IMG/VR virus record: IMGVR_UViG_3300044617_000787
Coordinates: 1 to 21,715 of that record
Source: a virus
Direction: 5' to 3' (one strand)
DNA length: 21,715 nt
The notes under the pieces: generated by a model
Database searches by the model: none
The model's input: only the letters and a program-made list of their open reading frames with translations
Told to the model about the DNA's origin: nothing
Position numbers and translations under genes: made by a program
Shown: positions 186-4,404 of the stretch, piece by piece
How the letters are laid out: each line of letters starts with the position of its first letter
Numbering within the stretch: the first letter of the stretch is position 1

Positions 186-261
186 TGAGGTGTAGTTCAG
201 TTGGCAGAACAGACGGCTGTTAACCGTCATGTCGGAGGTTCGAGTCCTCCCACCTCAGCCA
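186..261 (+). tRNA. tRNA-Asn (anticodon GTT)
   Basis: This 76-nt cloverleaf has a perfect 7-bp acceptor stem (TGAGGTG with CACCTCA), a D stem GTTC/GAAC with an AGTTGGCA loop, an anticodon stem GACGG/CCGTC with loop CTGTTAA (anticodon GTT at loop positions 3-5), and a T arm GGAGG-TTCGAGT-CCTCC. The 3' end is discriminator G plus a genomically encoded CCA. It reads AAC/AAT (Asn) codons. It lies 7 bp after the stop of the preceding gene and was probably co-transcribed with it. A single phage tRNA is usually explained as compensating for codon-use differences with the host, but it could also be an attachment-site relic. No integrase is visible here. Confidence 0.96.
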
Positions 262-454
262 ATAAAAAACGGGAATAGGAATCTTGTGGATACCCTACCC
301 CCGCGGATGCACTTTACTTAGGGACTATGGATCTGGGGAGAAACATAGAAATGCAAAACAAAGGTAACACTCAAAAAGCGTTCTCGACAAGAGCATTCAC
401 GCTCTATCTGAAGGCAATTATTACTATATCAATGATTTATAACACTTACCTGAG

Positions 455-476
455 TTATCCACAGGTTATCCACAGG
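455..476 (+). repeat. Two tandem DnaA-box repeats
   Basis: The 11-mer TTATCCACAGG occurs twice head to tail (455-465 and 466-476). Each copy contains the exact 9-bp bacterial DnaA-box consensus TTATCCACA, at 455-463 and 466-474. The 11-bp period puts both boxes on the same face of the helix. An AT-rich segment lies just to the left, as expected for a DNA unwinding element. An exact 9-mer match is expected only about 0.17 times in 21.7 kb on both strands, so a tandem pair is unlikely by chance. Confidence 0.7.
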
Positions 477-611
477 CTGTGGGAAAGTGTTTACGGAGCA
501 TTGCCGAACGGCAACGTTGGGTTAGCTCAATTAACTCTAAGGTAAAGGTTAAGGGAAGAATTTTCTTGTTAAAGGGGAACAAGAGCATTGAATGAGAAGA
601 GTGAGAGAAGA

Positions 612-646
612 GGGGTGATGGGGGATTCTTAAGGGGGAAGAGGGGG
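612..646 (+). other. Putative G-quadruplex motif
   Basis: Four uninterrupted G-runs of 4, 5, 5 and 5 bases occur at 612-615, 620-624, 633-637 and 642-646, with loops of 4, 8 and 4 nt. Short loops and runs longer than three meet the usual criteria for a stable intramolecular G-quadruplex, on the + strand DNA or its RNA. It lies 34 bp upstream of the helicase-loader-like gene, within a purine-rich tract. Structure formation is predicted by pattern only. Confidence 0.5.
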
Positions 647-680
647 TCTTGTCAAGAGGGTAAACAGCAACTTTTTTTTA

Positions 681-2339: not shown

Positions 2340-2581
2340 AAATTGACGATGCAGTAGCAAGAGATTTGGAACAAATAGATAAGCTCGCAAAGAAAATGCT
2401 TGCCGCTTATGAGAGTAAGCCGTTCTACGACCTGCTCATTCATGTTTTTTGCATGGCATATATTAGTGGTTCTGCCGATGCTCGAGCTTCGTACCTTAAA
2501 GATATTTGCGATGAAATAAGCGACATTGCCGCTGCAGCAGGGATAGTTGATGACGAGATTGACGACAAAGACCTCAACTAA
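2336..2581 (+). CDS. Small hypothetical phage protein
   Basis: The 81-residue protein starts at ATG 2336 in an ATGA overlap and has a GGGGAAA ribosome binding site. It is predicted to be almost entirely helical. It holds 'AYISGSADARASYLKDI', similar to the pattern in the protein at 1891-2076 and in the partial gene at the left edge. The C-terminus is strongly acidic (VDDEIDDKD). It overlaps the VRR-NUC gene by 32 bp in another frame. No function can be assigned. Confidence 0.65.
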   Translation: MKIDDAVARDLEQIDKLAKKMLAAYESKPFYDLLIHVFCMAYISGSADARASYLKDICDEISDIAAAAGIVDDEIDDKDLN

Positions 2582-2957
2582 AAAAGGTAGGAGCGGTCCC
2601 GAAGAACAGCAGCAGATTGCGTTCTTTGAGTACTGCAACTACATGACCCTTGCCACAAAGAACATGGCATATAGTCTGGCATTCCATATCGGCAACGAAC
2701 GTAAAGCTTCTATCCAGCGACGGATCATGATGAAGCGAGCGGGAGTGAAGAAGGGAGTGCCAGACATCTGCGTACCAGTCCCCAACGAAAAGTATCACGC
2801 GCTCTATATCGAGATGAAAATTAAGCCAAATAGGTTATCACCCGAACAGGCTGACTACCTTCGGCATCTTAACCAGTGCGGTAATTACGCCGTAGTCGCG
2901 TGGTCTGCTGACGAAGCAATAGAAACCCTAGAAAAGTATCTTCATAACAAGCTATGA
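2550..2957 (+). CDS. VRR-NUC domain nuclease
   Basis: This 135-residue protein is a stand-alone VRR-NUC enzyme of the PD-(D/E)XK superfamily. Catalytic elements are visible in order: Glu18-Glu19 and Gln22 in the first helix, 'GVKKGVPDICV' with Asp72, then 'LYIEMK' with Glu88 and Lys90, followed by the helix with Gln100 (SPEQADYLRHL) and the final 'YAVVAWSADEAIETLEKYL'. Phage single-domain VRR-NUC proteins are thought to act on branched or structured DNA during replication or recombination. I chose ATG 2550 because AGGGA lies 6 nt upstream; an in-frame TTG at 2547 is the alternative. The gene overlaps its neighbours at both ends (32 bp with the previous gene, ATGA with the next), so expression is coupled. 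Confidence 0.93.
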   Translation: MTRLTTKTSTKKGRSGPEEQQQIAFFEYCNYMTLATKNMAYSLAFHIGNERKASIQRRIMMKRAGVKKGVPDICVPVPNEKYHALYIEMKIKPNRLSPEQADYLRHLNQCGNYAVVAWSADEAIETLEKYLHNKL

Positions 2958-3445
2958 AGTATAAACCACCACCAGAGGTATTAGTGGATCCAGACTGTAA
3001 CGAAACGCAATTTCCTGAAAAAAACCTATGGCTTGCTGTAGTAGACCGCGCAATTAAGGATTACTGCGGGTTCTTTGAAAAGCTTTTCATGGTGGGATTT
3101 AAACACGGTAAATTTCTTAACGTGGTCGGTCGCGTAGAAAGCAACCTTTCGATCATTCAAACTATGTACGAGCTCAACCGATTGCGTTGGTTTCTTTTTG
3201 AGGAGAATCCAGAGCCGTTCAATATGCAGTACATTATGGAATCTCTATACGACAACCATCAGGGAATGCTTTCCTGTATGCGTAAGGAGATAACAAAGAA
3301 ATTTAACGATCACGTTGATGCAGTGGAGCGTCTTGGAAAGTTCCCAAGACTAGTCCACTACATTAGAAATGAGACAAACGCTCTTACCGAAGGAAGCCTT
3401 CGACGCGAGCAGAGACTCAAGTTAAAGAAGTACCAGATAAACTAG
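2954..3445 (+). CDS. Hypothetical phage protein, last gene of the + operon
   Basis: The 163-residue protein starts in an ATGA overlap with the VRR-NUC gene and has no strong ribosome binding site, so it is probably translated by coupling. It is mostly helical. It contains 'LWLAVVDRAIKDYCGFF' and 'LRWFLFEENPEPFNMQYI', a layout reminiscent of a loosely defined group of small phage proteins with Trp-x-x-Ala-x-x-x-Ala-x-x-Asp and Trp-Phe...PF-x-x-x-x-I motifs. The last 20 residues are very basic (RREQRLKLKK), suggesting nucleic-acid contact. A regulatory or DNA-binding role is possible but unproven. Its stop codon overlaps the stop of the converging holin-like gene. Confidence 0.75.
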   Translation: MKYKPPPEVLVDPDCNETQFPEKNLWLAVVDRAIKDYCGFFEKLFMVGFKHGKFLNVVGRVESNLSIIQTMYELNRLRWFLFEENPEPFNMQYIMESLYDNHQGMLSCMRKEITKKFNDHVDAVERLGKFPRLVHYIRNETNALTEGSLRREQRLKLKKYQIN

Positions 3446-3645: not shown

Positions 3646-4404
3646 TTAGGCTGGGAATCGACAAACACGCTTGCGCGGGTCAACAAACCTACCTCCAACA
3701 GCGGTATTACAGTTCATCCACGGCTCCCAATAGAATCTTAGGTCACATGAGCTATACTTTTCAACCCAAGAATTAACATCAATAGACCTACCGTCTACAC
3801 CGTCCATATCAACTATACACGGCTTGCGTACTTTAGGGTGCGCTCCGTGGGACTCGCAGACGTATCCCTTGAGGCAGGATTGTCTGTAAGGATTATCCAC
3901 AAGGACACAATTAGGCAAACGAGCAGATACAGCAGTGAATAGAACTCTTCTTGCACTCGCATTTAGGTCACACTCCAAACACGGGGAAATGTAACACTGC
4001 AAATTCCCCTTAGACGATTCGATACGCTTTGCGGTTCGCTCTAGGATTGCGTTAAACCCTCCTAGAATGCGCGCATCTCCACGATTTATCTTTCGGGATG
4101 CAGACGCTTTGGTCTCGCCGTAAAGAAGCTCGTAGCGGCCACACCGACGGTTACGCATACAAACAGAATTGACGAGATGAACGCGAATGACTTTAGGTTT
4201 AGAGCTTTGAAGAAGCTTATCGGCACAAGCACATTCCGTGCCAAATGTGTTCTCAAGCCAGCCAGTAGTTATAGTGCTTTTAAAAAGAGCTTCGGTGCGC
4301 TCGCAGTTCCACTTCTTATGGCACATACCAAGAAGACTATTTGGCGCTGCGACAACGCTCGAGGGGAAGAGCGTTAATAGAATTATAGCGCATAATCGTA
4401 GCAT
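3646..4404 (-). CDS. Secreted Cys-rich protein in the lysis cassette
   Basis: The 252-residue protein has a clear Sec signal peptide: hydrophobic residues 4-18, with likely cleavage after Ala19 or Ala20 (SVVAAPN). The mature part carries 16 cysteines, an even number consistent with up to eight disulfides, and conserved-looking segments 'RVHLVNSVCMRNRRCGRYELL', 'SPCLECDLN', 'CIVDMDGVDGRSID' and 'FYWEPWMNC'. I do not recognise a named family. Placed between a membrane coiled-coil protein and the holin, it could be an exported cell-wall enzyme or another periplasmic lysis factor. His/Asn/Arg and several Asp/Glu-containing motifs would suit an active site, but no catalytic residue can be named. 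A GGATAAG ribosome binding site precedes ATG. Confidence 0.85.
   Translation of the reverse strand: MLRLCAIILLTLFPSSVVAAPNSLLGMCHKKWNCERTEALFKSTITTGWLENTFGTECACADKLLQSSKPKVIRVHLVNSVCMRNRRCGRYELLYGETKASASRKINRGDARILGGFNAILERTAKRIESSKGNLQCYISPCLECDLNASARRVLFTAVSARLPNCVLVDNPYRQSCLKGYVCESHGAHPKVRKPCIVDMDGVDGRSIDVNSWVEKYSSCDLRFYWEPWMNCNTAVGGRFVDPRKRVCRFPA

Follow-up and report, generated by a model that had tools for sequence, protein, structure and literature searches.

In phage lambda, origin recognition by O and helicase loading by P go together. Phage SPP1 encodes an origin-binding protein (G38P) and a helicase (G40P) of its own, and DnaA-dependent origins such as P1 oriR and pSC101 carry tandem consensus DnaA boxes by AT-rich DNA, together with a replicon-encoded Rep protein and iterons. 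SPP1 G38P and oriL are also treated in PMC3485210. For basal unwinding systems (BUS), the rule asks for three or more NAN trios lying no further than 16 bp 3' of a box (PMC8287927).

The stretch of DNA analysed here, called the window throughout, comprises 21,715 bases and is the whole of IMG/VR record IMGVR_UViG_3300044617_000787, from an uncultured phage; going by relatives whose lengths are 33-34 kb or above, we estimate that it covers about half of the genome. Rightward early genes extend from a tRNA-Asn gene to position 3445, and leftward lysis, tail and capsid genes lie beyond. The tRNA-Asn (GTT; 186-261, plus strand, found by ARAGORN and Rfam) occupies the same place in most relatives whose record includes that stretch, and is the left landmark of the module described below; the right one is a VRR-NUC nuclease gene (2547-2957, plus strand, Pfam 1e-9). 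A tRNA-Trp gene (2971-3044 in L134) is inserted directly 3' of tRNA-Asn in that one close relative and in no other. The capsid protein has its relatives in Mx8, BUCT555 and a Bradyrhizobium phage (about 30% identity), and the half of the genome covered here showed no T7-like replication gene. The phage is therefore not evidently T7-like, and the comparison with T7-type phages made in an earlier, sequence-only reading of the window is not supported by present evidence. A host search in genome_contigs with the capsid and terminase found nothing.

Two exact DnaA boxes, TTATCCACA, occupy 455-463 and 466-474 on the plus strand, their starts 11 bp apart, one helical turn as already described in that reading. 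The window contains three exact boxes against 0.15 expected from first-order Markov simulations of its sequence, and the 11-bp pair appeared in 0 of 300 such simulations. Among viral_contigs the tandem pair was found in at least 120 stretches, compared with 2 for the reversed-pattern control. A weak inverted box-like site (TGTGGGAAA, two mismatches) follows at 478-486 on the minus strand; no DnaA-trios were seen by eye 3' of the boxes, in 475-505, under the rule given above. On the 5' side of the boxes, an AT-rich stretch of 24% GC (413-446) is a candidate unwinding region, and its AT content is kept in relatives while its sequence is not conserved. The AT-rich segment of the sequence-only reading is present, with the correction that it may be partly coding: a small open reading frame, in whose N-terminal half (351-446) 26% of the columns vary, runs through both it and the boxes.

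The third exact box of the window (3893-3901) lies inside the leftward gene 3646-4404. The same 9-mer occurs in many distant relatives, 880-940 bp beyond where the match to the neighbouring gene starts and mostly as ATT GTG GAT AAT codons. In 20 of the 27 relatives with IVDN or VVDN it reads ATTGTGGATAAT or GTTGTGGATAAT, and the others differ; because it sits in codons of a conserved gene, we rejected this box as part of an origin.

Downstream of the box pair, the plus-strand gene 681-1214 encodes a protein of 177 amino acids. Its start is probably ATG 699, which gives 171 amino acids, since L134/L282 has no upstream in-frame ATG. An AlphaFold2 model of the protein reached pLDDT 76.8 from a 14-sequence alignment, three sequences having given only 47.7. 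VIA-align placed SPP1 G39P first (1no1_A; predicted N domain, Z 10.3, rmsd 1.4 Å over 65 of 67 residues) and, second, lambda P in its complex with E. coli DnaB (9oa1_Y; Z 9.2, rmsd 6.9, 142 aligned), the row after 9oa1 falling to Z 5.3. Foldseek against viral models (BFVD) returned replisome organizers at E 2e-6, and 13 of the 14 family members have a match to PHROG 2289, helicase loader. The Pfam G39P family (PF11417, Inhibitor_G39P) also matches 13 of 14 at E<0.1, with 3.8e-5 as the best value; the window protein scores 17 bits, below the curated cut-off of 22, and we therefore class it as having the fold and not as a PF11417 member. Nothing credible came from a PDB sequence search with the loader. 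Taken with the structural model, these matches support a helicase loader of the G39P / lambda P-type fold, in agreement with the G39P-like gene that had been placed directly after the T8 tract. A search for DnaB_C domains in 14 records, from relatives and from phages used for comparison, found none, so that the helicase the protein would load is probably that of the host.

The two close relatives of the window, L002 and L134 (the latter the same as L282), were compared with it in a three-way alignment. Between 447 and 698, 10 of 252 columns are variable, against 183 of 979 in the rest of 262-1492 (Fisher p 2e-10), which makes the stretch from the boxes to the loader gene the most conserved DNA of the surroundings. 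Both boxes are invariant in the two relatives, and so are the G runs and T tract described below, the single exception being a G run that is altered in L002. The conserved noncoding part reaches from 546 up to the likely loader start, at 698, and is purine-rich over 546-660; the complementary strand of 475-700 folds better than shuffled sequences (z -2.85).

The small open reading frame that overlaps the boxes (351-545, plus strand, 64 codons) encodes one hydrophobic stretch followed by LSYPQVIHRLW, and a Shine-Dalgarno-like GGGGAG precedes it at about 335. Since it is open in both close relatives as well as in the window, part of this supposedly intergenic region may be coding. This raises the reading that the boxes are nothing other than codons of the small frame, and the compensating indels of L002, which keep it open, are in its favour. 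Against it, the 11-bp repeat crosses frames and its third positions are invariant too. In the more distant L306 and L316 (49% identity in the loader), one exact box and one with a single mismatch (TTTTCCACA in place of the second) persist in the same setting without a startable frame, and we regard a coding coincidence as very improbable. The motif kept in these two loci is ACTTAyC-n2-AGTTATCCACAGnTTwTCCACAGGCT, the other noncoding sequence having mostly diverged; its persistence, with the corresponding frame of L306 devoid of a start codon, speaks for conservation of the boxes at the level of DNA. Both kinds of constraint, coding and non-coding, may act on the box region.

The same conservation bears on DnaA titration, by which the boxes would sequester host DnaA and delay host replication. 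Each phage copy would offer two sites of predicted high affinity; titration, however, needs no kept position, and what is found is only a pair, adjoining the loader gene, with conserved spacing and flanks. We consider this explanation very improbable.

Between the boxes and the loader gene lies a G-run element of the form GGGG-N4-GGGGG-N8-GGGGG-N4-GGGGG (612-646, plus strand), whose four runs fall in GGGGTGATGGGGG (612-624) and GGGGGAAGAGGGGG (633-646) and whose run pattern makes it quadruplex-prone. It is followed by TTGTCAA (649-655, plus strand; complement TTGACA) and by a T8 tract (672-679, plus strand) directly 5' of ATG 681, the tract being identical in the two close relatives and absent from the more distant slots inspected. 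The four-run G-tract and T8 tract pointed out from the sequence are present. Across 15 aligned copies of the element, relatives included, GTCAA is invariant and its distance to the last G run hardly varies. In L304, L306, L308, L331 and L332, and not in the clade of the window, GCGAAGCGA(G/A)C occurs just 5' of the G runs.

The G-run element ending in GTCAA lies 5' of the loader gene in all 14 loci whose record reaches that DNA. It also occurs without a loader in L309, L311, L325 and L344, the last with a tandem box pair as well, and in a weaker form in L302. The boxes are less constant: five loci (L285, L300, L304, L308 and L331) combine loader and G-run element with no convincing box, the judgement for L300 and L308 covering exact boxes only. 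The DnaA boxes are therefore lineage-variable, and what constantly accompanies the loader is the G-run element and not the boxes, which makes host DnaA at most a lineage-specific partner. The sequence-only reading had looked to box loss in close relatives that keep the gene as evidence against an origin using DnaA, and here the outcome is divided: unchanged in L002 and L134 and partly kept in L306 and L316, the boxes are absent from those five loader loci.

These observations are what favours an origin without DnaA, in which the G-run element and GTCAA would form the working core, the loader would start replication there, and the boxes would tune expression or timing. The element recurs with and without the loader and with and without boxes; in L311 and L325 it cannot simply be an mRNA leader, since no plus-strand gene of at least 70 aa starts within about 1.4 kb after it. 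On the other side, the boxes are strictly conserved where present, the quadruplex is putative, and in viral contigs that are unrelated, G-run DNA mostly lies away from DnaA boxes, with two or more of them within 150 bp in 3 of 106 cases. We know of no phage that uses such a G-run element. An origin working in this manner is possible, and we hold it to be somewhat unlikely.

As a general mark of phage origins the G-run motif was rejected, 96% of the contigs with it having no DnaA box nearby. Starting from the tandem boxes, G-run pairs lie near 38% of them against 7% of random positions, a difference that shrinks to 25% in gaps with boxes, compared with 10% in the remaining gaps of at least 200 bp, when intergenic DNA serves as the control, so that the enrichment across viral contigs is modest. 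The genes adjoining tandem boxes are more commonly VRR-NUC, primase and helicase genes than those at control positions on the same contigs. Gene neighbours and nearby G-run pairs together back a role of tandem boxes at replication modules, without proving it. The loader profile matched none of the other tandem-box contigs, and within the set searched the pairing of boxes with a loader is thus special to the family of the window. In four phages outside that family (L004, L005, L033 and L052) the tandem boxes lie near VRR-NUC genes. Five viral contigs without detectable similarity elsewhere (L123, L125, L128, L129 and L133) share one and the same 32-mer, GAGTTATCCACAGGTTATCCACAGGCTGTGGG, and have a GGGGGGG-run pair some 40 bp upstream of it.

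Using the family-specific neighbouring gene (2954-3445, plus strand), we collected 76 related loci, many of them near-duplicates. The surroundings, from tRNA-Asn on the left to VRR-NUC on the right, are common to most of the loci whose record includes that stretch; what lies in the slot between them differs. Sixteen loci, the window included, carry the loader family, and 27 of the 76 have instead, on the reverse strand, a winged-helix gene with kinship to O-like and DnaD-like initiators; none has both. The stricter pattern for the G-run element gave the counts 0, 17, 27 and 8 against the initiator, with no exception to the exclusion (Fisher p 5e-8, only a guide as near-duplicates are included). 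In the four initiator loci inspected (L137, L138, L142 and L143), 22-bp-spaced repeats lie in or by the O-like gene. Those of L138 (3591-3672), L143 (1309-1418) and L142 (3788-3849) are palindromic, of the TGCTCA-N4-TGAGCA type, and resemble the lambda iterons in O. The slot of the window holds no member of the initiator family, and 260-720 no iteron array. As loader and O-like initiator alternate there and never occur together, the slot very probably serves the initiation of replication, as a module whose contents alternate. No replication-initiation family figures among the top 25 PHROGs of the loader and G-run-element loci, whose records are fragments, and it is possible that an initiator is encoded elsewhere in the genome.

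The exclusion also weighs on the reading of DnaA as a regulator of transcription. DnaA is an established transcription factor. Placed 225 bp 5' of the start of the loader gene, the boxes could control a promoter of the loader or of the small reading frame, with the origin elsewhere. By eye, the complement of the G-run element offers TTGACA and, 18-20 bp further on, TAATAC-like bases, a possible leftward promoter; a scan for a sigma-70-like site found none, and the exchange of the slot with an O-like initiator and iterons points to replication initiation. The pair of boxes may have a part in transcription or in DnaA titration, yet regulation as the whole explanation appears to us unlikely.

With the box pair, the loader fold, the local conservation and the exclusion with the initiator module established by computation, the reading that we prefer, and consider rather likely as a whole, is that 413-1214 forms the module that initiates replication in a phage family whose capsid protein is of the Mx8 type and in whose searched records no DnaB-type helicase came to light. 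Host DnaA would bind the tandem boxes (455-474) and, together with the AT-rich and G-run DNA beside them, open the duplex; the G39P / lambda P-type loader from the adjacent gene would bring host DnaB onto the opened strand, and the host replisome would then copy the phage. Other branches of the family carry the O-like initiator in the same slot (with iterons where inspected) and lack this loader family. The parts of this scheme differ in strength. That the slot is an origin has a good probability, and transfer of host DnaB to the opened strand by the loader is, from its predicted fold, quite likely too. Binding and opening by DnaA stands at about even chances, and a contribution of the G-run element to opening or priming falls somewhat short of that. 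The origin using host DnaA put forward in the sequence-only reading holds as far as a very probable initiation module and a helicase-loader fold are concerned, and the use of host DnaA at the putative origin is plausible; what counts against it is that the boxes, missing from the five loader loci, are not needed family-wide. Cumulative GC skew, offered there as a check, was uninformative: in the window it is positive on either side of the site, and both there and in two longer relatives it is dominated by gene orientation, so that it speaks neither for nor against an origin.

How does this locus compare with the described systems? It shares with basal unwinding systems the close tandem pair of TTATCCACA boxes (PMC8287927, PMC6669920), and differs from them in that no DnaA-trios follow the boxes and the AT-rich DNA lies on the opposite side; with the AT-rich stretch 5' of TTATCCACA and no trio pattern 3' of the boxes, it does not have the basal unwinding layout. 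Tandem consensus boxes adjoining AT-rich DNA are also the likeness to P1 oriR and pSC101, unlike which no Rep protein with iterons was found in the window. With SPP1 it has in common a predicted G39P-type loader domain, superposed as given above, whereas counterparts of G38P and G40P were not found here.

The likeness to lambda lies in a modelled loader of the P fold, which would hand host DnaB to a phage origin, and in sister loci with O-like winged-helix proteins and iterons. Lambda has O and P both, while here a slot holds either of the two, never the pair, and in the loader branch a G-run element, sometimes with DnaA boxes, takes the place of O and iterons; as no O-like gene with iterons was found in the window, we count it neither among the lambda-type origins nor as a member of the SPP1 system. 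What is newly shown is that 76 relatives share their surroundings and have, in one slot, alternative starter modules: O-type recognition and helicase loading look like alternatives at one address. The literature searched held no report of such an arrangement, though one may still exist. If true, phages could swap origin recognition for the host initiator or for a DNA structure and keep only the loader, and relatives with and without boxes form a natural series for direct testing of the need for DnaA. That this amounts to an initiator-less phage origin, consisting of a quadruplex-prone G-run element, an invariant GTCAA tail and a lambda P-type loader, drawing on host DnaA in some lineages and interchanging with an O-plus-iteron module at the same address, we suggest only tentatively. 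By analogy, the module would work most like a lambda ori minus O, or like SPP1 minus its origin-binding protein.
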